Source of the DNA: Acidobacteriota bacterium
Lineage (GTDB): Bacteria; Acidobacteriota; Vicinamibacteria; Vicinamibacterales; 2-12-FULL-66-21
NCBI GenBank assembly: GCA_003222675.1
Contig: QHWT01000100.1
Coordinates: 3,034-59,446 of the forward strand
DNA: 56,413 nt
Reading direction: 5' to 3'
This document shows positions 32,489 through 41,942 of the stretch, piece by piece. How positions within the stretch are numbered: the stretch's first letter is position 1; every line of letters begins with the position of its first letter. The notes beneath the pieces are model-generated. The model saw only the letters and a list, made by a program, of their open reading frames with translations. It ran no database searches and was not told the origin of the DNA. Both the position numbers and the translations under genes were made by a program.

Positions 32489-33037
32489 ATGGTGAATACC
32501 TGCGTCGCCGCCATTCTCGCTGCCGCCATGTTCGCGGCGCCCTTCGCTTCGCCGCCGGAGGACGCCAGGTCGACGGAACTCGTCAAACAGCTCACGCAGC
32601 TGCTCGATCAGAAAAAGCTCGACAGCCTCGCGACCGGCGACTCCAAGAACCTCGGCACCTACGTCGCCGCACTCTATTTCCCCGGCACGCAGCTGCTCGT
32701 CGTCACCGGCAAGTACGCGGCGCCGCCGCTGCTGAATGAAAAGATTGCCAAGAAGGATTATCGCGACGTCTACATCGACCTGAATTCCGCGTCCGTCGCG
32801 GGCTCGAAGGTGTTCTTCATGGATCTCAACGCGGACGGCCTGGTCGCCAAGCCTGGCGAGAACCTGGGGACCGACAGCATCGAACAGGCCGGGAAGACGA
32901 TCACATTCGACGGCGACTGGAAGAAAGGGAAGATGAGCGAGGCGGAGTACCTCAAGGCCTTTTCCGATGCAGACGCCGCTTACGCGCACGCGCTCGAGCT
33001 GCTGATCGCGCAGTTGAAGACGCTCGGGACCCAGTAG
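32489..33037 (+). CDS. Secreted hypothetical protein
   Basis: 182 residues with a signal peptide (MVNTCVAAILAAAMFAAPFA). The mature part has a short helical N-terminus (STELVKQLTQLLDQKKLDSLAT) and a beta-rich domain (FPGTQLLVVTGKYAAPPLLNEKIAKKDYRDVYIDLN, SKVFFMDLNADGL). I do not recognise a family. Conserved-looking, with a normal composition and its own start after a 50-bp spacer. It is the last host gene before the tRNA-integrated element. Confidence 0.65.
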   Translation: MVNTCVAAILAAAMFAAPFASPPEDARSTELVKQLTQLLDQKKLDSLATGDSKNLGTYVAALYFPGTQLLVVTGKYAAPPLLNEKIAKKDYRDVYIDLNSASVAGSKVFFMDLNADGLVAKPGENLGTDSIEQAGKTITFDGDWKKGKMSEAEYLKAFSDADAAYAHALELLIAQLKTLGTQ

Positions 33038-33145
33038 CGTTGCCGCAGTCCGCGCGAATAGGTTAAACTGATCGTCTCTCCTTCGGATGCACACGACTGC
33101 CGGATCGATCAGGTCCGCGCACTCGGGGTGATCTGTGCAGGAATT

Positions 33146-33220
33146 GGGCGCTTGGCTCAGCGGTAGAGCATCGCCTTCACACGGCGGGGGTCGCTGGTTC
33201 GATTCCAGCAGCGCCCACCA
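33146..33220 (+). tRNA. tRNA-Val(CAC)
   Basis: Cloverleaf: acceptor GGGCGCT with AGCGCCC, D-arm GGCTCAGCGGTAGAGC, anticodon arm TCGCC-TTCACAC-GGCGG with anticodon CAC (33178-33180), variable GGGTC, T-arm CGCTGG-TTCGATT-CCAGCG-like and encoded CCA (33218-33220). Reads GTG codons. It is the attachment site for the element that follows; its 3' half is probably element-derived. Confidence 0.95.
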
Positions 33221-33253
33221 ATTCAAGTGATAGTAAACAACCAGGTTAGATGA

Positions 33254-33280
33254 AACGGCGCCGCGCAAATCGGCGCCGTT
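33254..33280 (+). terminator. Intrinsic terminator-like hairpin after tRNA-Val
   Basis: AACGGCGCCG (33254-33263) pairs perfectly with CGGCGCCGTT (33271-33280), 7-nt loop, followed by CCTGTTT. Likely ends the tRNA transcript. Confidence 0.7.
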
Positions 33281-33292
33281 CCTGTTTGGCGA

Positions 33293-33310
33293 GGGTGCAT
33301 TAGGGGTGCA
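33293..33310 (+). repeat. Element-end direct repeat, left copy
   Basis: GGGTGCATTAGGGGTGCA, itself two GGGTGCA-type half-sites 10 bp apart. An identical copy is at 40760-40777 near the other boundary. Position and structure fit integrase arm-type binding sites or an accessory att sequence. Confidence 0.65.
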
Positions 33311-33472
33311 ACTGCGAATCCGCCGTGGGTCGTCGTAATAGGCTCGCGGGTCGCCAGCGCGAGCTCCAGCGTGGGCCCGTACGCGAGGATCGCGCGCGAG
33401 GGCGCGCGTGAGCTCGAGGAGAGTGCCTCTACGGATTACTATCCGTTAGACGGCGCAGAATCACGATCCCGA

Positions 33473-34117
33473 ATGTTGCGATTCATCGGAGCCTTATGCT
33501 CCGTCCTACTCGTCGCGACGGCCTGCCGTCCCAGCGGTGGCATCGTGGCCACGTACAAATCACCCACGGGCGCGTACACCGTGCAACTGGCGGGGAAGTC
33601 CACCGCCCCAAGAGCCATGTTCGTGGAGCACCTGCTGTACGCGAATGCATTCAAGGGACCCGCTGTCGTCGTGCGCAACTGGGAAGTTCACTTCGCAGAC
33701 ATGCTCGATACCGCGTTTGATGACGAGTACTCCGGTGCAGATTGGCCACAGGCCAACGTCCTGCGCTTTCGAACGTCATCATTCGACCGAGCACTGGCGC
33801 CGGACGTGATCGTGCTGGCGAACCACCGCCGTGACCCGCTCGCCTTCGTCACCGTCAAATCCGCAGATCTCTTCCTAGTCTTCGATCTCGCTGCGGGCAG
33901 TACGATACAACTCCTCGCACCCCCTCAAGCACGACTGACCGATTTGAGTTGGGTCAAGGTGGAGGGACAATGGACAAGTGGCAAGAGACTGCCGGCCACC
34001 GGCGTGAACTTTGTATTGCCTAAGCAACCCGGAGGTCAGTTCAAGTACGTCGCAGATATTTTCGACGAGCGCACGCAGATTCGTGAAGTTCAGCAGGGTG
34101 CCAAGGTCTATCACTGA
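33473..34117 (+). CDS. Putative lipoprotein of unknown function (element cargo)
   Basis: 214 residues from ATG 33473, chosen because it yields a signal peptide with a lipobox-like end (MLRFIGALCSVLLVATAC). The mature domain is beta-rich (YKSPTGAYTVQLAGK, AFVTVKSADLFLVFDLAAG, DLSWVKVEGQW). No family recognised. A GTTAGAC motif (33445-33451) sits 21 bp upstream and an attC-like fold follows the stop, so it may be an integron-type gene cassette. Confidence 0.6.
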   Translation: MLRFIGALCSVLLVATACRPSGGIVATYKSPTGAYTVQLAGKSTAPRAMFVEHLLYANAFKGPAVVVRNWEVHFADMLDTAFDDEYSGADWPQANVLRFRTSSFDRALAPDVIVLANHRRDPLAFVTVKSADLFLVFDLAAGSTIQLLAPPQARLTDLSWVKVEGQWTSGKRLPATGVNFVLPKQPGGQFKYVADIFDERTQIREVQQGAKVYH

Positions 34118-34125
34118 TCCGCCAC

Positions 34126-34199
34126 GTCCTACCGGCACTTGCAGCCGGCGGCGCTCGGCGCGCTCATTAGGAGCCGCGGCTGAAGCGCGCACGTTAGAT
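34126..34199 (+). other. attC-like site between two small ORFs
   Basis: The right core GTTAGAT (34193-34199) fits GTTRRRY. Internally CTTGCAGCCG (34138-34147) pairs with CGGCTGAAG (34177-34185), leaving one unpaired G, as in the L''/L' boxes of integron attC sites. The expected left core is degenerate (GTCCTACC at 34126). Span 74 bp, within the usual attC size range. Needs a covariance-model search. Confidence 0.38.
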
Positions 34200-34207
34200 C
34201 GCAAGCC

Positions 34208-34657
34208 ATGACTGACAAACGCGATCGTGAGAAGCTGGCAGAGGCCCTCCGCCATCTCGCAACCGGACAGATCTCCAATCGTGAATACGAAGACCGAACA
34301 GAAGTCAGGTCATCGGACATCGCCGTGCGCGAAATCTGGCGCGCGGCGTGGGGAATGTATTCGGACGTGCGGACTCACCGACTGACGGGAAAGGATGCCC
34401 TGACAGCGGACACAAAAGAAGCCGTCGCCCGCTGCATTCTGTTCTTGAACTCCGACCTGCCTTGGGAATGGCCGACGCGCTCGTCCACGGAGATGCTCCT
34501 GTTCGCCATAGCGAGCCTCTGCACGCTCGGACTTCTCGCACGTCGCGATGTACGAAGATACCGCGCCGCAGGTGAATTCGCGGTGTGGCCGTTTCTTCGG
34601 CGATCGGACTACGAGGCGGCGTTACGGGCTCCGAGACTGCTGAATCGCGCGGTCTAA
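34208..34657 (+). CDS. Small hypothetical protein, cassette-like
   Basis: 149 residues. The N-terminal helical part (DREKLAEALRHLATGQISNREYEDR) and IWRAAWGMYSDVRTHRL resemble soil hypothetical proteins; then VARCILFLNSDLPWEWP, a hydrophobic segment (MLLFAIASLCTLGLLA) and a basic tail. The ATG lies 8 bp after GTTAGAT and the TAA stop is inside GTCTAAC (34652-34658), exactly how many integron cassettes begin and end. Function unknown. Confidence 0.62.
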   Translation: MTDKRDREKLAEALRHLATGQISNREYEDRTEVRSSDIAVREIWRAAWGMYSDVRTHRLTGKDALTADTKEAVARCILFLNSDLPWEWPTRSSTEMLLFAIASLCTLGLLARRDVRRYRAAGEFAVWPFLRRSDYEAALRAPRLLNRAV

Positions 34658-34814
34658 CAGCGGCGGCAGCCTCCGAGCGACACCGCTGCTGTGCAGACGG
34701 ATTCAGTATGTTGGCCGAGCGAATCATGGGACGAAACGCCGTTGTTCAGCTTCCAGCCGTGTTAAGGAGCAAGGTGACGCATTCGCCTCCGAGTACCGAA
34801 CTGTTGTCTGGCAA

Positions 34815-35273
34815 ATGCGGGAGCTCGACGGCGGACGCGGTGAGTATGAGCTGTGCGTTCCTGGCTCCGACTCCGGCGGCTTTGATGTCGGCGCGGAAAT
34901 CCGCACGTACGGAATCTACCCGTTGCTCGGCGGGTGTCAGCTTGGTTGGAGCTGGGACGTTGTCTCGGATCTCTCGATCGAACAAATCTGCACTCAGTTT
35001 CTGTCGTTGGTCCGCGCAACGCTGTCCGAGGACTGCCGACTACGTCGAACTCTCCTGGCTGGTGAGGTCTACGATTTCGTGATCGAGGCAGCGTCCCCGC
35101 ACGGCTGGCAAATCGTTGACTCGCTTCCGCTGGGACTGATCCGCCGATGGCGATTGCGCAAGCGTCAGTACGCCACTGAACAAATGCTGCAGAATCGACT
35201 CTTGCCGCCAGTCGGTTTCGCCGAGGGGCGCGACACTTGGGACAACTTTGTCTTTCGGCGGCACGTCGGCTAA
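34815..35273 (+). CDS. Small hypothetical protein; start probably further upstream or lost
   Basis: 152 residues from ATG 34815. The same frame stays open and protein-like upstream (DAFASEYRTVVWQMRELDGG) to at least 34700 but has no ATG, GTG or TTG there, so the native start may be lost or altered. It contains GEYELCVPG, GCQLGWSWDVVSDLSIEQIC and a basic C-terminus. No family recognised; its size and character fit immunity-type or cassette proteins. The stop TAA is in GGCTAAC (35268-35274), again attC-left-core-like. Confidence 0.5.
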   Translation: MRELDGGRGEYELCVPGSDSGGFDVGAEIRTYGIYPLLGGCQLGWSWDVVSDLSIEQICTQFLSLVRATLSEDCRLRRTLLAGEVYDFVIEAASPHGWQIVDSLPLGLIRRWRLRKRQYATEQMLQNRLLPPVGFAEGRDTWDNFVFRRHVG

Positions 35274-35322
35274 CAGGCGCTGCGCTCAGGTTCGTCAACG
35301 ACGCGACCTTGTTCGAGGTTCA

Positions 35323-36108
35323 ATGGCCTGTGGCCTCTGCCAACTCGACCGCCCACTCGTAGACAGCCACCTGCTTCCGGCGGCTGCGTACAAGCTCGCT
35401 CGTGAACCTGACCGACAGAATCCCAATCCCATCGTCGTGACGCCCGGCCACGCCGGTTCGAGCTCTCGCCAGATCTCAGACGAATTCCTCTGTCGCGAAT
35501 GTGAAGACCGATTCTCGAAACGCGGCGAGCGGTACGTCCTCGCTCAATGCGCCAGACCGAAGGGCTTCGCACTTCGTGACGTGCTCAAGACGCTGCCGCC
35601 CCTCGTCGAGAATGAACGGTTCAAGGTGTTCGACGTCACGGTCTCAGTGGGAACGCCCGTTGAGGACTACCTGTACTTCGCCGCCAGTGTCTTCTGGCGC
35701 GCGGCCGCTCGCTGTTGGACACTCAACGGCCAAACGATTCAGCGGCTCACGCTGGGTCCGTACGAGGAGCAGTTGAGAAAATATCTCCTCGGTGAACTGC
35801 CGTTCCCCCACGAGGTACGCCTGTTCGTTCACGTCTGGAGCGAGGAGCGCGCCGGCTTCACGAGCATTGTTCCGACCAGCGGCCGCGCGCCGGATGGAAC
35901 TCATCGTCACAAGTTCACCATCCCGGGAATTCTGTTCATCATCCTCGTCGGAAAGACGGTCGCGACAGAGATCGACGCCGGCGCACTGAACAGCAATGCC
36001 GGTAGTTTCATGTGGCTTTGCCCGTGGTCGAAGGACTCCCTGTTCGAGGGCATGGGCGCCCTGGTCATGGACGCACTCCGCGCTCGACGCGGCCGACGAC
36101 AACCCTGA
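35323..36108 (+). CDS. Zinc-ribbon 'SHLLP' protein, HNH-like or effector-like
   Basis: 261 residues from ATG 35323. C3-x2-C6 and C57-x2-C60 (CGLCQ ... LCRECED) form a likely zinc site, with DSHLLPAAAYK between, a motif of a widespread family of HNH-like hypothetical proteins. The HNH catalytic His/Asn cannot be confirmed. The C-terminal 150 residues are alpha/beta with a hydrophobic strand (KFTIPGILFIILVGK). A role as nuclease or defence component is inference only. No attC-like sequence is evident after its stop. Confidence 0.6.
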   Translation: MACGLCQLDRPLVDSHLLPAAAYKLAREPDRQNPNPIVVTPGHAGSSSRQISDEFLCRECEDRFSKRGERYVLAQCARPKGFALRDVLKTLPPLVENERFKVFDVTVSVGTPVEDYLYFAASVFWRAAARCWTLNGQTIQRLTLGPYEEQLRKYLLGELPFPHEVRLFVHVWSEERAGFTSIVPTSGRAPDGTHRHKFTIPGILFIILVGKTVATEIDAGALNSNAGSFMWLCPWSKDSLFEGMGALVMDALRARRGRRQP

Positions 36109-36178
36109 TTCTGCTTCCGCCCGCTCGTTCAATCCGCTCGATCGCCGACGGCTGATTGTCGCCGCGCGGCCGGCCGCG

Positions 36179-36610
36179 TCATGGTTTCTCTCGGTCTATC
36201 TCTCCGTCGTCGCCGTCATCGCTCCCGGCGGGCTCGAGCAACCTCATGCCGAGTACGGCGGCCGTTTCGCGAGCCATCGGCATCCGGTACAGCGGCTCGC
36301 CGTCGGCGCGCACTCGGGCTAGCAGGATCACGTCGTCCCACACGGACACCGAGAACTGATCAAGCGGTACGAGAATCCCGTTGCGGCGCCGCGCTTTCTC
36401 CGGCGGAAGCCTCGACGTGTTCGCGGCCCACTCGCGTAAGCCGGTTGCGACGTCGATCAACCATCGACCGTCGAGCCGTCGAACGCTGGCGTTCAAACGG
36501 CGCGTCTGAATCGCCCGGCTGACCACTTGCCGCGACGCGCCGACGCGCCGTCCGAAGGCGGCAGGCGACTCTGTCGCGGGTTCCGCTCGCTTGTCTCGAT
36601 GCACATGCAC
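36179..36610 (-). CDS. Small HTH-like protein, possible phage packaging or regulator protein
   Basis: 143 residues. The N-terminal segment FGRRVGASRQVVSRAIQTRRL reads as a helix-turn-helix followed by a strand-rich wing (DGRWLIDVATGLREWAANT), an arrangement seen in phage terminase small subunits (Nu1-like). The C-terminal half has VPLDQFSVSVWDDVILLARVRADGEPLYRMPMA and an acidic tail. Opposite strand to its neighbours. Moderate evidence; no partner terminase is present. Confidence 0.45.
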   Translation of the reverse strand: MHVHRDKRAEPATESPAAFGRRVGASRQVVSRAIQTRRLNASVRRLDGRWLIDVATGLREWAANTSRLPPEKARRRNGILVPLDQFSVSVWDDVILLARVRADGEPLYRMPMARETAAVLGMRLLEPAGSDDGDDGEIDREKP

Positions 36611-37824
36611 CTCGGGAGTTTCTCCAGAACTACCGGAGCGGCGCGATTCGTGCGCCCGCCAGCCGCCGCCGGCGAGAAGGACCCAAAGCCCGCCGGCTCA
36701 GTAACTTGCGTGACTCGACCGCTTCGATCGAGCGACGACCATCCGATCGTCGCTCGCGTTCGCGATGCGACGTCGAGCACATCGTCACGCGCGGCGACCG
36801 CCGCCCCACGCGGCCAACGTGAACGCCGAGCGCACGCGATCCTCCGCGTGTTCGGCGGCCGGCGTTCGGTGTCGGCGACGTGCCGAAGATGCATTCGCGC
36901 GCTCGAGTTCTTCGATGGTGCCGCGCGTCGGCGAGCTCGAGCCGGAGCTCGCGGACTGTCGTCGACGTCGGAGCGGACGCACGCGCGGGACGCGCCTCCG
37001 CCTGCCGTCGGGCGAGTGCGTGCTCGAGGTTCGCGATCGTGATCTGCGCGTCGTCGAGCATGGCGTCGAGCGCACGCGAACCTCGAAGAGCGTGCCTCTA
37101 CGGCTCGAGGACGGCGAGAACACCGGCGATCCGGTCGTCGCGCAGGAGCTCGCCCGGCACGAGGACCGCCGCGCGACCCAAGAGGCCGCACGCCGGCGTC
37201 CCTGAATTCACGATTCGGCGGTGTCGCTCGATCGGGGGATCGGCGCGACGCGCGTACCGCGGACAACATGGGGAGTACGGGGCCAGCGTGTCAGCCTGAC
37301 GGTGGCCCCCCTGTCGGCCCCCGCGCTGGCCCCCCTCGCGCTTCGTACTGGACGCAGGATAGGAACGCTCCAACCCGACACAATCGCATGAGCCGCAACG
37401 GTTTCGCACCTGGGGCAGTCGCCGCTCGATGGTCGTCGTTACAGGCACGGCGTACAGCGTCACGGGTAACGTCGGAAGGGGGAGCGACCCCTGAATCCCC
37501 TCGCAGCGCGCCGCGGCCGGGGTCGCTCCCCCTTCCTTCTGCATCCCCGCGACGCGGAGCGCGCGGCATGACGCAGACCGATCAACGAATGCGGCACCGC
37601 ACGGTGTCGAAGGTTGGCTCGTCGTCGAGCCTCGTCAGCGCCATCGACGAGACACGATGCGACGGTGCTCGGCGGCGTCCAGGGTGCCCTCGCTGACGCT
37701 CGGCGGCTGCGCCGCCCTGGACCCCGCCTGCGCGCCGTCGCGTGATGCATTTGTCGATAGCGCCATCCGCGGCACCTGCCAACCCGGCGGCCGACGTTGG
37801 CTCGGTCGACGGATACAATCGGGC
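36611..37824 (+). other. 1.2-kb stretch without a convincing gene, possible decayed coding sequence
   Basis: Several frames are open on both strands because of GC content. The most protein-like piece is on the minus strand, about 37098-36850: AVLVPGELLRDDRIAGVLAV, then an in-frame TAG (about 37098), then LDDAQITIANLEHALARRQA, suggesting a gene interrupted by a stop. Also present: GGCCCCCCTG-like short tandem words (37300-37340), a long hairpin (37475-37536), and GC-rich palindromes near 37670-37735. Nothing firm can be called. Confidence 0.4.
37475..37536 (+). repeat. 18-bp perfect hairpin with GGGGTCGCTCCCCC arm
   Basis: GGAAGGGGGAGCGACCCC (37475-37492) is the exact reverse complement of 37519-37536; loop 26 nt, GC-rich. 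The only strong hairpin of this type inside the element apart from the one after the tRNA. Could be a terminator, or a REP-like unit. Confidence 0.88.
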
Positions 37825-38166
37825 GTGCTCATCCCCAATGCGGATCGGGCGACGATTGAACCGGCGAAGCTGCGGGACTACCTGCTCTCCGCGACACATC
37901 CGATCGGTCGCTTCAAGGCTCGATTCTTCAATGCGCTCGGGTTCGCACCGGATCGTTGGGAGGAACTCGCCCAAGCGCTGCGCCTCCAGCATCTGACCCA
38001 AGACGGCCAGCCGGCGGGTCCAACGGTTCAGGGCCGAAAATTCACGATTCGGGCTATCCTGAATGGGCCGACCGGACGGTCGGCCTCGGTGATAAGCGTC
38101 TGGTTTATCCCGGCTGGCGGCGACGTGCCGCGGTTCGTGACTGCATATCCCGGAGATGGCCTGTGA
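37825..38166 (+). CDS. DUF6883-like protein
   Basis: 113 residues from GTG 37825, the point where protein-like sequence begins (VLIPNADRATIEPAKLRDYLLS); the longer frame upstream is low-quality. The pattern LPNAD..I...KLRDYLL...HP.GR.KA.FF..LGF and the C-terminal SVWFIPAGGDVPRFVTAYP match my recollection of DUF6883. Its TGA overlaps the GTG of the next gene. Family function unknown; the fixed pairing with DUF4926 suggests a two-component module. Confidence 0.7.
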   Translation: MLIPNADRATIEPAKLRDYLLSATHPIGRFKARFFNALGFAPDRWEELAQALRLQHLTQDGQPAGPTVQGRKFTIRAILNGPTGRSASVISVWFIPAGGDVPRFVTAYPGDGL

Positions 38167-38408
38167 CCTTCCACACCCTCGATGTCGTCGTGCTGAACAC
38201 GGACCTTCCGGCTCATGGGCTGAAGCGCGGCGATCTAGGCGCGGTCGTTGATATCTACTCGCCCGATGCCGTGGAGGTGGAATTCGTCACCGCCTCGGGT
38301 CGCACCCAGGCGCTGATCACCCTGCGCCCGAGCGACATCCGGGAAGTCGGCGACGACGACCTGGTGGCCGTGCGTCCCGCGGGTACATCTCCTACTCGCG
38401 ACGCCTGA
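38163..38408 (+). CDS. DUF4926-like small protein
   Basis: 81 residues, GTG 38163 overlapping the upstream stop (GTGA). LDVVVLNTDLPAHGLKRGDLGAVVDIY and EVEFVTASGRTQALITLRPSDIREV are the whole DUF4926 domain: a small SH3-like beta barrel. Together with DUF6883 it forms a coupled pair on a mobile element. Toxin-antitoxin-like behaviour is a guess from size, order and context. Confidence 0.75.
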   Translation: MTFHTLDVVVLNTDLPAHGLKRGDLGAVVDIYSPDAVEVEFVTASGRTQALITLRPSDIREVGDDDLVAVRPAGTSPTRDA

Positions 38409-38645
38409 CACGCATGCAGCCGACGGCGCTCCTTTACAGGCTGTGAGACCAGTTCCCTCAAAGTCGTATCGCGTTTTGCATGCGCGGCTAGCCGGGATCT
38501 CGACGTCCTGGCCGTTTGCGCTTCTCCAGAGGACGTGACGGTGCGGAGCACCCTCGCTGCGTTGCCCTGAGCTGCTGCGGATCAATGACAACGACCGATT
38601 GTTTCATCGCGTTCTCACGTACTTCTTGGACGGAAACCGCGGTGA

Positions 38646-39089
38646 CTATGCGATGAGCCCGTCCGATCCGCTTGCGGAGCAGCGGATGCGACGCCGTGCA
38701 TCCCCCCGACCGTTCGCGCGGAGGCTGAGACCATCCTCAATCCAGACAAACTCGAAGAACACATCCGGTTCATCAACTACAGCTTCATCGAACTCCTACC
38801 AGACGCGAGCGGACAATCCTGGATTGATAAACGAGTCGAAGAACTTCATCCGTACCACAAGGGGCTCAATGATCGACAGATCGTCGCCGAGGTGGAGCAC
38901 GACGGCAACATTTCCGTGTTCGTAACCTTCGACGGAATGCTGAAGAAGGACTTGGCTCCTCACGTCAACATCCGGATCGAAACGCCCGTCGAATGCTGGA
39001 ATGGTTTCAGGATCTCGCCCGGGACGCCACCCCCCTGGGTGCCCGCGCCCCAGCATCCTCTGGCACGCGAGACTTGGTGGCGATGGTAA
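38646..39089 (+). pseudogene. Hypothetical protein fragment without a start codon
   Basis: The frame ending at TAA 39087-39089 is protein-like from about 38720 (AEAETILNPDKLEEHIRFI, SWIDKRVEELHPYHKGLND, VEHDGNISVFVTFDGMLKKD, NIRIETPVECWNGFRI) but has no ATG, GTG or TTG before 38892. Another frame just upstream (38587-38680) also reads as protein (DRLFHRVLTYFLDGNRGDYAM). A frameshift near 38650-38700 joining the two, or a truncated 5' end, would explain this. No family recognised. Confidence 0.45.
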
Positions 39090-39096
39090 GGGCCGG

Positions 39097-39354
39097 TCAG
39101 GGATGCCCTGGATCGTGCGTACGCCCGGATACCTGCGGCACGTGTCTGCTGCCGGCAGCGAACGCGTCCAGGTCGACCGGTAGGTAGCGCACTGCGCGAC
39201 CCAGTCGCAGAAACGCCGGGCCCCGCCCTTGGCGTCTCCAGGCGCGAAGCGTGGCGACCTTCAGGCCCAGTCGGTAGGCCGCATCTGCTTCGGTGATTCC
39301 GCGATTCTCATGGGTGAGGCTCGGGCGAACGCTTGATGTCGGTGGTGACGGCAC
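39097..39354 (-). CDS. Excisionase/AlpA-like HTH DNA-binding protein
   Basis: 85 residues from GTG 39354, preceded by a perfect AGGAGG (39359-39364); an ATG at 39465 would overlap the integrase stop (TAATG) and add 37 low-complexity residues. The HTH_17 domain reads GITEADAAYRLGLKVATLRA then WRRQGRGPAFLRLGRAVRYL, as in excisionases of tyrosine-recombinase elements. It lies downstream of int in the same direction. Likely directs excision or represses int. Confidence 0.75.
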   Translation of the reverse strand: MPSPPTSSVRPSLTHENRGITEADAAYRLGLKVATLRAWRRQGRGPAFLRLGRAVRYLPVDLDAFAAGSRHVPQVSGRTHDPGHP

Positions 39355-39464
39355 GGGACCTCCTGCGACGTTCTGGTGTCTCAGTGCACCGTAGCGCAAG
39401 TCTGGGCCGGTGGTGATGCAGGAGGGCACAGTGTCGGGCACACTGACGTTCTGGGGGCCTGACA

Positions 39465-40681
39465 TTAGGGCGCGACGAGTTTCGCAACTGCGGCGGCCTT
39501 GTGCTCCGGCGCCAAGTGCGCGTAGCGCAGCGTCATCTTGATGTCCGCATGGCCGAGCAACTCGCGGACGGTGTTGAGATCGACACCGGCCATGACTAGC
39601 TTCGATGCAAACGTGTGGCGCAGATCGTGGAAGCGAAAGTTCGCGATGTTCGCCTGCTCACGAACCAGCGGCAGCCACGCAGTCTTGATGTCGACAATGG
39701 GATCGTCGGTGCGGCCGCTGAAGACGAACGTGGAGTCGTCGATCTCCGCGGGGTGCCACGTGCGGAGTACTTCCAGCGCTTCCGCGTTCAGCGGGATGTG
39801 GCGCGTCGTTCCGTTCTTGGCAGTCACGCCACGGACGGTCAGAAACGCCAGATCCATCTGGACGTCGGCCCAGCGCAGCGCGCAGAGCTCGCCGAAGCGC
39901 ATCCCGGTGTCGAGCGACAGAATCACCATCGGTCGCAGGTTGTCGGTGTACTCACCGTACGCGGGCCATTCCTCGTACCCGCGCGCGCGCCGCCAGGCAT
40001 TCGCAGATTCACGATCCTGCCGCCGGAGAAGGTCGCGCGCCTCCAGCGCTTGCCGCAAACGCCTCTCCTCATCGACCGACAGGTACCGGAGCCGCCCGGT
40101 CTTGTCCTCTCGAAGCGCTTTGACCGCTCGTAATGGATGTTGCGCCAGATGACCCCATTCAACGGCGCGACCAAACATCGCGCGCAATGCCGCGAGGTCG
40201 CGATTGATCGTCGAAGTGCTGAGACCGTGTTTGCGCCGCTCGGTCCGCCAGCGCTCCACCTCCCACGCTGACAGAGCGGACAATCGCCAAGGCGCGGTTT
40301 CAGAATCGATTTCAGCCGCGCGACCGTCTCGGGCCCTCGGCGTCGATGGGCGGTGAGCCACGGCGCGTAGATATCCGTGAGGTACTCTTCGACGGTGCGC
40401 TCCTGTTCGCGGCGCTTCAGGACGCGCGGATCACGTCCGCTGGCATATTCGCCGAGGAGAGCTTGCGCGAGGGTTCGCGCGAGCGCCGGCGAGCCGATGA
40501 TCTCGATGCTTCCGAGCGAGTACCAGCGTCCACGCGCCAGAAGAACGCGGTACGAGTGTTTGCCGGTCGGGCGAACCCGAAGGACGAGCCGCGGCTGGTG
40601 CGTATCGTAGATGTCGACAGTCGCGACCGGCGGCTCTTTCGCGAGCTGGCGGAGGAGATCGATTGTCAGGTTCCGTTTCAT
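39465..40681 (-). pseudogene. int: Tyrosine recombinase (integrase), split by a frameshift
   Basis: The N-terminal arm-binding part (from ATG 40681, MKRNLTIDLLRQLAKEPPVA; PRLVLRVRPTGKHSYRVLLA) and half of the core-binding domain are in one frame to about 40281 (LKSILKPRLGD). The rest continues in another frame (LSALSAWEVERWRTERRKHG to the end). Inserting one base near 40280 restores a continuous protein. Catalytic residues are intact in the second part: R in TGMRFGELCALRW, H-x-x-R in HDLRHTFASK, H in LLGHADI, Y in TLRYAHL. It is either a real inactivating deletion or a sequencing error. Confidence 0.85.
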
Positions 40682-40759
40682 CGATGCGACCGTCGGCGTC
40701 GATCGGGCTGAGGATGCGGCCCTTCGCCGCGGCGGCACGCCCCCACGACTCTGATTCGG

Positions 40760-40777
40760 GGGTGCATTAGGGGTGCA
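40760..40777 (+). repeat. Element-end direct repeat, right copy
   Basis: GGGTGCATTAGGGGTGCA, identical to 33293-33310, located between the integrase start and the tRNA remnant. Confidence 0.65.
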
Positions 40778-40905
40778 CGCGGCGTGATCCGGCGCCGGTC
40801 GACATCGATCACGGTAGCATCGAAAATTGTAAAAACGTTAGGAGAATCGCCAAAATCTGCGATGGCAGTGGATCGCGGGCGATGGGTTGCGACCCCCAAA
40901 GCCGG

Positions 40906-40949
40906 TTCACAGGCGGGGGTCAGTGGTTCGAATCCACTAGCGCCCACCA
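40906..40949 (+). other. Displaced tRNA-Val 3' half (att site)
   Basis: TTCACA-GGCGGGGGTC-AGTGGTTCGAATCCACT-AGCGCCCACCA. Compared with the intact tRNA, the outer and variable parts match, while the T-stem differs by paired changes (GCTGG/CCAGC against AGTGG/CCACT) that keep it foldable. There is no D-arm or 5' half. A 7-bp GACCCCC/GGGGGTC inverted repeat (40891-40921) overlaps it. It marks the distal end of the element. Confidence 0.75.
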
Positions 40950-41084
40950 ACCTTCGCTCCATGACAAGCGCGAAGGTTGCCCGTCATAGCGTCGCGAAGC
41001 GACGCGACGGCGGACGTGCTCCGGTCCTTCGGAGCTACGGTGCCAATTCCTTCTGAATTCACTCGGACCGTGATCCGCGGCCTG

Positions 41085-41942
41085 CTACCGCCGCTTGTCC
41101 GGCAATCGTCGCTGGACGGCCCCGTCGTACATGTGATCCTTGGGATCGATCTGCCGCATCGGTTTCTCGCGCTGACGTTCTTCCTGCGCGTGCGCCGTGA
41201 TGCCCGGCACGCGCGAGATGATGAACAACGCGTTGGCGATCTCCTGGGGAATGCCGATGTCGCCGCACAGCGCCGCGATGGCGCCGTCGATGTTGACCGG
41301 CTGCGCGCGGCCAGCGGGGAGTCCGCTCACGACGAGCTCGACCGCCCGAATCATCTGGATGTGTTCCCCTTCGAGCTCGAATTCAAGCGCCATCTGAAAC
41401 AGACGCGCGGCGCGCGGATCGCGTGTGTGGAACCGATGGCCGAAGCCGGGAATCGGTTCACCCGCTTCGTGCAGCTTCTCCACCACGGTCGCGGCGGCTT
41501 CTTTGTACGAGGATCCGCGGCGCACCAGCTCGAGGCCGCGATCGAGAAACTGCATGCAGCTCTCGATGTCGCCGCCGTGGTAACGCCCGAATCCGAGCAC
41601 GCCGGCCGCCACGCACGCGCGGAGCGGCGCCCCGGTCGTCGCGGTGTTGCGCGCGGCGAGCGTCGACGGCGGGGTTGCGCCGTGATCGATGAACGACACG
41701 AGGATGGCTTCCATCACGCTGCCGATCGCCGGCGAGGGCACGTCGCCCATCAGCAGGAGATAGATCGCCTCGCCGAATGTCAGCCGCCCCATGATCTCGT
41801 CTAGCGGATAGCCGCGAACGAGAATCTTGTTCGGCTCGATGCACGTCAGAGATGTCTTCCACCTGTCGTCCGAGACACGCGGGGTGAGCCGCCGTTCCAT
41901 CGGGACTTCCGTCGTTCCGCCGTCCGGTCTGGTTTTTGCCAT
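41085..41942 (-). CDS. Citryl-CoA lyase-like citrate synthase family protein
   Basis: 285 residues, shorter than citrate synthase (about 380-430). KTSLTCIEPNKILVRGYPLDEIMGRLTFGEAIYLLL, SFIDHGATPPSTLAARNTA, GVLGFGRYHGGDIESCM and the catalytic region GEPIPGFGHRFHTRDPRAARL are those of the citryl-CoA lyase/CitE-independent CCL group. Known chemistry: citryl-CoA to acetyl-CoA + oxaloacetate, or use in C-C lyase reactions. Only 9 bp separates it from upp. Substrate unproven. Confidence 0.75.
   Translation of the reverse strand: MAKTRPDGGTTEVPMERRLTPRVSDDRWKTSLTCIEPNKILVRGYPLDEIMGRLTFGEAIYLLLMGDVPSPAIGSVMEAILVSFIDHGATPPSTLAARNTATTGAPLRACVAAGVLGFGRYHGGDIESCMQFLDRGLELVRRGSSYKEAAATVVEKLHEAGEPIPGFGHRFHTRDPRAARLFQMALEFELEGEHIQMIRAVELVVSGLPAGRAQPVNIDGAIAALCGDIGIPQEIANALFIISRVPGITAHAQEERQREKPMRQIDPKDHMYDGAVQRRLPDKRR

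Follow-up and report, generated by a model that had tools for sequence, protein, structure and literature searches.

The window analysed here, a stretch of 56,413 nucleotides of Acidobacteriota DNA, carries two overlapping genes that likely form a toxin–antitoxin (toxin–immunity) module, consisting of a BECR-fold RNase toxin of the DUF6883 family, probably a tRNase, and an SH3-like antitoxin of the DUF4926 family (Table 1). A toxin–antitoxin function was among the suggestions of the earlier note on this DNA, and it gained support from comparative evidence of several kinds: the predicted fold, the catalytic residues, the fusion of relatives to toxin-delivery proteins, and linkage. The same note had described an overlapping DUF6883–DUF4926-like pair, and Pfam searches bore this out. 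The product of the first gene matched DUF6883 (PF21814) over residues 3-110 (107.4 bits, E 6e-31), and the product of the second matched DUF4926 (PF16277) over residues 6-60 (76.8 bits, E 8.5e-22); both scores exceed the curated cut-offs of 27 and 29.1 bits, respectively. Neither protein had a match in NCBIfam, or in PADLOC at E up to 1. In the open-access literature searched (subscription journals lie outside it), the name DUF6883 was not found, while DUF4926 appeared in one paper and there, in the portions of text available, only in a list of proteins of a viral contig group. Within that literature the pair is new as a named pair, and it is ordinary in kind.

Table 1. Features of the gene pair and of the island that contains it (window positions)
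Feature	Position	Strand	Remarks
DUF6883 gene	37825..38166	+	113 aa, GTG start; predicted BECR-fold RNase toxin
DUF4926 gene	38163..38408	+	81 aa, GTG start; predicted SH3-like antitoxin/immunity protein
GTGA overlap	38163..38166	+	stop codon of the toxin with start codon of the antitoxin; translational coupling possible; from sequence
tRNA-Val(cac), integration target	33146..33220	+	ARAGORN; Rfam RF00005
Left attachment-site copy (tRNA 3' end)	33183..33221	+	39 nt, repeated at 40912-40950 with 87% identity
Right attachment-site copy (probable original tRNA 3' end, displaced)	40912..40950	+	repeat; comparison with relatives' tRNA
Possible integrase arm-type repeat, left	33290..33310	+	95% match to 40757-40777; role inferred
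Possible integrase arm-type repeat, right	40757..40777	+	21-nt repeat inside the border; role inferred
Tyrosine integrase, two frames	39465..40738	-	Arm-DNA-bind_3 (40738-39923) and Phage_integrase core (40361-39465) by Pfam
HTH_17 protein, excisionase-like (role inferred)	39097..39465	-	Pfam HTH_17, 36.4 bits

The closest named relative is Acidobacteria RIFCSPLOWO2_02_FULL_67_21 (locus L109), with amino-acid identities of 76% for DUF6883 and 82% for DUF4926. When 7071 bases of that locus were compared with window positions 33001-41200, DNA similarity was confined to 37802-38377, that is, to the pair alone. The fractions of codons that differ between the two copies at positions 1, 2 and 3 were 0.18, 0.11 and 0.54 for DUF6883 and 0.16, 0.05 and 0.59 for DUF4926, and both genes therefore look maintained as proteins. 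The window DUF6883 protein has a pI of 10.1 and its partner one of about 4.5; the DUF6883 pI was the higher in 66 of 67 pairs compared. A scan for sigma-70 promoters and terminators around the pair found none.

The structure of the first protein was predicted with AF2 from an alignment of 66 sequences. The model (pLDDT 93.8) has three helices followed by four strands (H-H-H-E-E-E-E), and its best VIA-align match in the PDB was 6CP9, the CdiA-CT toxin of Klebsiella pneumoniae 342 (Kp342), with Z 10.9 and rmsd 2.1 over 99 of 113 residues at 20% identity. The next matches were the CdiA-CT toxin of E. coli 3006 (EC3006; 6CP8, Z 7.7), a Salmonella toxin–antitoxin complex (7VD7, 7.3), 6VEK (7.2), BrnT (3U97, 6.8) and RelE (1WMI, 5.9), and below Z 5 further CDI and RelE-type toxins were intermixed with unrelated folds. 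A VIA-align Z under 8 can reflect only a common arrangement, and every match except 6CP9 fell under this value; the weight of the fold match is therefore carried by 6CP9. Foldseek gave 6CP9 chains as the only matches under 0.001 (best E 2.7e-4, probability 1.00). Searches from sequence to solved structures returned no credible relative. The model has the helices followed by a four-stranded antiparallel sheet that mark the BECR fold, together with active-site positions of a characterised member, so that DUF6883 is likely, on this modelling, to be a BECR-fold RNase toxin.

The active sites of the two CDI toxins are given in Table 1 of PMC9086364 as K157, Y160, H170, R252 and T255 for Kp342, and K204, Y208, H256, R260 and T330 for EC3006. 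According to the available text of that paper, both toxins cut uncharged tRNA-Ile(GAU), after C72 and C71, respectively; the text is inconsistent on the cut site, placing it first in the anticodon loop and later after C71 and C72, and we adopted the latter. Residue correspondences were read from the end points of the structural alignments, assuming no gap near the ends, rather than residue by residue. With the 6CP9 alignment running from model residue 9 (= 151) to 110 (= 259), K15 falls on K157, R103 on R252 and T106 on T255; with the 6CP8 alignment running from 6 (= 195) to 111 (= 335), K15 falls on K204, Y19 on Y208 and T106 on T330. Three of five active-site residues are thus placed for each toxin, leaving out Y160 and H170 of Kp342 and H256 and R260 of EC3006; R103 lies off every listed EC3006 residue, and Y19 is one position off Kp342 Y160. 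Among the 66 DUF6883 sequences, K15 was conserved in 66, Y19 in 64, H25 in 65, K31 in 66, W93 in 66, R103 in 61, and T/S106 in 65. Of 11 sequences in which fused forms are frequent, 9 had R103 and 10 had T/S106. The window protein is intact and retains the conserved residues. From fold and residues together, DUF6883 is probably a tRNase. When the 66 proteins were searched against Pfam at E up to 1, CdiA_C_tRNase (PF18664), which we take to be the family of Kp342-type toxins, was absent from the 14 families matched, as was any Ntox family.

A toxin of this fold might instead cut mRNA, on or off the ribosome, in the manner of RelE and BrnT, and the genes would then be an ordinary type II pair. 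BrnT, RelE and 7VD7 do appear among the structural matches, and the window DUF6883 is a free-standing protein of 113 aa, but the CDI tRNase 6CP9 ranks above them, and K15, Y19, R103 and T106 coincide with active-site positions in at least one of the two CDI tRNases. We regard mRNA cleavage as unlikely.

The AF2 model of DUF4926 (pLDDT 88.2) is a five-stranded SH3-like barrel. Its structural matches were a broad SH3/KOW set with Z of 8-10 at best (Hpy99I N-domain 9.8, NusG 9.1), 868 of 999 matched chains having Z of 5 or more, and such matches indicate the fold of DUF4926 and not its function. All of 50 members searched with Pfam matched DUF4926; other families were matched weakly (Fpg-like_C in 22, SH3_13 in 10, others in 1-2 each, among them CarS SH3 in 1). 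Most type II antitoxins carry a DNA-binding domain; none was recognised in DUF4926, either by Pfam on the 50 members or in the SH3-like model. Given its linkage to DUF6883, the opposite charge and the correlated evolutionary distances (below), DUF4926 is predicted to bind and neutralise the toxin.

Among 396 genomes of the phylum, both families were patchy, DUF6883 occurring in 45 and DUF4926 in 51. A same-strand DUF4926 lay downstream at 53 of 58 DUF6883 places, with 19-49 bases between the profile matches at 50 of these 53, and the five unlinked places were incomplete or weak DUF6883 matches. (A few DUF6883 genes were counted as two places, and the 53 linked DUF6883 places correspond to 50 DUF4926 places.) Where loci were found by DUF6883 sequence only, DUF4926 was also adjacent at 69 of 74 in genomes, which represent many phyla, and at 21 of 21 in viruses; several of the viral loci are near-copies, and the 74 genome loci partly overlap the 396-genome set (for example L112 and L118). 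Two of the five genome loci lacking DUF4926 stop at a contig edge. On plasmids, DUF4926 was present at 4 of the 7 loci examined, out of 16 plasmid records matched. No DUF4926 was recognised at L081, L082 and L085. At the last of these, on an Agrobacterium plasmid, the DUF6883 gene (L085:2956-3336) and the end of a gene for a BPTD_3080-family restriction endonuclease overlap, an arrangement in which use of DUF6883 in a defence operon is possible. The 66 other intact pairs included 18 with a 4-base overlap, and gaps ranged up to 31 bases. The pairing, proposed earlier as fixed, is nearly so, and these families, patchy and tightly linked from the DUF6883 side, are not mostly unlinked housekeeping genes. 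With small co-directional linked genes, the GTGA overlap, residence on a tRNA-Val island and patchy occurrence, the pair has the layout of a type II toxin–antitoxin system.

From the DUF4926 side, 50 of 76 places in the 396 genomes were linked and 26 were without DUF6883, so that DUF4926 may serve other toxins, partners or roles. The surroundings of 23 of these 26 places were read, and remnants of DUF6883, judged by eye, precede DUF4926 at L063, L067 and L070. Pfam searches of 10 chosen neighbours at 7 lone-DUF4926 loci matched BrnT, PIN, nucleotidyltransferase, ParE and the PT-TG pre-toxin family at five of them (L035, L036, L056, L068 and L071), and at L037, L039 and L073 neighbours resemble HigBA, Phd and HicAB by eye.

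The mobile-element setting that the earlier note proposed is substantiated by a tyrosine integrase, an HTH_17 protein, a repeat of the tRNA-Val 3' end at both borders and five relatives without the island. The pair lies within an island of 7.7 kb that adjoins the tRNA-Val gene and has the integrase and HTH_17 protein at its right border. The genes flanking the island were searched in 20 genomes, the window's own among them. In 5 of the 19 others (G396, G398, G402, G362 and G399), the two flanking genes were near neighbours on a single contig; a tRNA-Val(cac) occupied the short interval between them, and the island was absent. The tRNA has the same orientation as in the window in G396, which is of the same genus, and in G398, and is reversed in G402, G362 and G399 (loci L185, L186 and L187). 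Window positions 40906-40959 are 96% identical to the tRNA 3' end of G396 over 55 nt, and the right attachment-site copy is 96-98% identical to the relatives' tRNA in 4 of the 5; in G399 the left copy is nearer (98%) than the right (87%). The island therefore probably brought the left copy with it, and the right copy is probably the original one, displaced. The integrase, read in two frames, is either broken here by a frameshift or misread in the assembly, and the island may have lost the ability to mobilise itself. Another cargo gene (35248-36108) encodes a protein of 286 aa with cysteine pairs, for which neither Pfam nor NCBIfam gave a match at E up to 0.1.

Residence on a mobile island, the patchy distribution (45 of 396 genomes) and the overlap with a restriction endonuclease gene at L085 would also suit a module that serves anti-phage defence by abortive infection instead of addiction. 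Against this, the PADLOC searches were negative, no sensor domain was matched with Pfam, and the DUF6883 domain also occurs within phage proteins. We hold an anti-phage module to be improbable as an alternative, and the toxin–antitoxin mechanism would itself leave room for a role in defence.

In relatives, DUF6883 is found as the C-terminal domain of larger proteins. Six Phage_Mu_F proteins end in it; one lies among phage-like genes on an Anoxybacillus plasmid (L081) and five are viral (L104, L107, L191, L193 and L194, the L195 protein being the same as that of L194). In Rhizobium (L082) it is the C-terminal part of a protein with Fil_haemagg_2 repeats. Directly after the MuF fusion, a DUF4926 match was found above the cut-off at L107 and L191 and below it (20-27 bits) at L104, L193 and L194; the 56-aa gene after the L081 fusion and the 106-aa gene after the L082 fusion had no DUF4926 match. 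At L106 and L083, DUF6883 stands behind N-terminal regions without a Pfam match, and DUF4926 is next. Leaders are shared between polymorphic toxin cassettes and the main protein. At L087, the DUF6883 frame of a DUF6883–DUF4926 cassette opens with a leader that is also present in the 789-aa protein encoded upstream, for which Pfam gave no match; by analogy, the locus looks like the exchangeable toxin cassettes described for polymorphic toxins in the available text of PMC3482391. These delivery contexts are the strongest reason for calling DUF6883 a toxin and DUF4926 its antidote. The window toxin and the L107 toxin domain had no match in the phage collection INPHARED, and a viral scan with alignment A2 confirmed nothing.

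Since DUF6883 is a tip domain elsewhere, the window copy could be a stranded polymorphic-toxin tip cassette with its immunity gene, retained for immunity only or decaying. DUF6883 was incomplete or split in 13 of the 74 genome loci, and DUF4926 was complete in all 69 that have it, but this excess of broken toxins is suggestive only, the loci having been picked by DUF6883, one of the 13 (L161) being marginal and many assemblies being drafts. The window toxin itself is a free-standing 113-aa frame without a delivery-protein fusion; it is intact, with conserved residues retained and codon-position constraint, and seemingly free-standing pairs form supported groups in several phyla, all of which makes a stranded tip distinctly unlikely. 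A non-toxic two-protein RNA- or DNA-binding complex, in keeping with the nucleic-acid-handling proteins NusG and RecD2 among the DUF4926 matches, would leave the MuF and haemagglutinin-repeat fusions, the active-site residues and the L087 cassette unexplained, and its probability is very small.

The history of the pair was examined in a tree of 55 concatenated pairs bearing 13 phylum labels, the window being labelled Acidobacteriota. Phyla clustered imperfectly, with 19 label changes against a minimum of 12 and a mean of 37.7 when labels were shuffled. Cyanobacteria formed one group, Pseudomonadota showed at least 3 changes on starred branches, and apparently free-standing pairs were grouped with support within several phyla. 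Such a tree fits vertical descent and transfer alike. DUF6883 and DUF4926 distances were strongly correlated over 67 pairs (r 0.86; maximum 0.13 in 2000 shuffles), a result that shows a travelling unit and not binding, because shared inheritance alone would give the same.

In the toxin–antitoxin reading, DUF6883 probably cleaves tRNA via the conserved Lys15, Tyr19, Arg103 and Thr106, upon which translation would stop. The overlapping gene downstream encodes DUF4926, an acidic SH3-like barrel that probably acts by binding to the toxin and blocking the face that contacts RNA. Standing alone on the tRNA-Val island, the window pair most likely helps the island to persist. The toxin domain forms the delivered tip in phages and in contact-dependent systems, usually with an adjacent DUF4926-like gene. 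A wider proposal, which we put forward tentatively and think more doubtful than not, is that one pair fills three roles, as a module for addiction or defence that stands alone (apparently so in 13 phyla of the sample), as a MuF tip and as a contact-dependent toxin tip, united by an ancient activity of cutting the tRNA acceptor stem and by an SH3/KOW-like antidote that imitates RNA.

The CdiA-CT/CdiI systems of Kp342 and EC3006 are among the nearest known counterparts; their tRNase toxins share with DUF6883 the fold, the placing of Lys and Thr in the active site (both toxins), of Arg (Kp342) and of Tyr (EC3006), and a small adjacent immunity gene. They differ in having no sequence-level match to DUF6883, as the low identity of the structural alignment reflects, and the window DUF6883 is without a delivery domain. 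The immunity proteins also differ, CdiI of Kp342 being a dimeric beta-sandwich and that of EC3006 an alpha-solenoid according to the part of PMC6851490 available, whereas DUF4926 is a predicted SH3-like barrel. BrnT/BrnA and RelE/RelB likewise combine a BECR-fold toxin of about 80-110 aa with an adjacent partner gene, and brnTA has the toxin first, as here. However, the partner here is SH3-like and without a recognised DNA-binding domain, and the closest fold match of DUF6883 is a CDI tRNase and not BrnT. Relatives of the window toxin resemble the MuF polymorphic toxins of temperate phages, as presented in the available part of PMC5576092, in being C-terminal domains of Phage_Mu_F proteins with a small gene after them; the window DUF6883, in contrast, is unfused and outside a phage head operon. 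Zhang et al. 2012 (PMC3482391) likewise predict, in the portions available, the BECR fold for Ntox families, a fold common to polymorphic toxins and toxin–antitoxin systems, and the Ntox41 motif printed there ([RK]H, [KR], [ST]xxP) resembles DUF6883.

Two widespread domains of unknown function thereby gain a concrete proposed joint role with named active-site residues. If the reading is right, bacterial and phage DUF6883–DUF4926 pairs could be annotated as toxin–antitoxin or toxin–immunity genes, and small SH3-like barrels would become antidote candidates in other systems. The pair would also be another link between stand-alone toxin–antitoxin genes and the toxin tips delivered by phages and CDI systems.

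The DNA directly upstream of the toxin gene (37590-37824) forms a long, very stable hairpin (z -4.5, 200 shuffles), which occurs once in the genome. Of 55 loci, only 5, the window included, had an upstream fold with z below -3, so the hairpin is not general among homologous loci. Its identification as an attC-like integron site was rejected by eye, as its GTT and AAC ends are in the wrong orientation, and over 33000-41300 the sole Rfam family matched was tRNA. Farther upstream, 37474-37536 holds an inverted repeat whose 18-bp arms match perfectly and lie 27 bases apart, which was absent from the terminator-scan output. In a betaproteobacterial MAG (L130), an attC-like sequence was recognised by eye in the 160 bases inspected after the DUF4926 stop; judging from this locus, integron cassettes may be a further vehicle for the pair.
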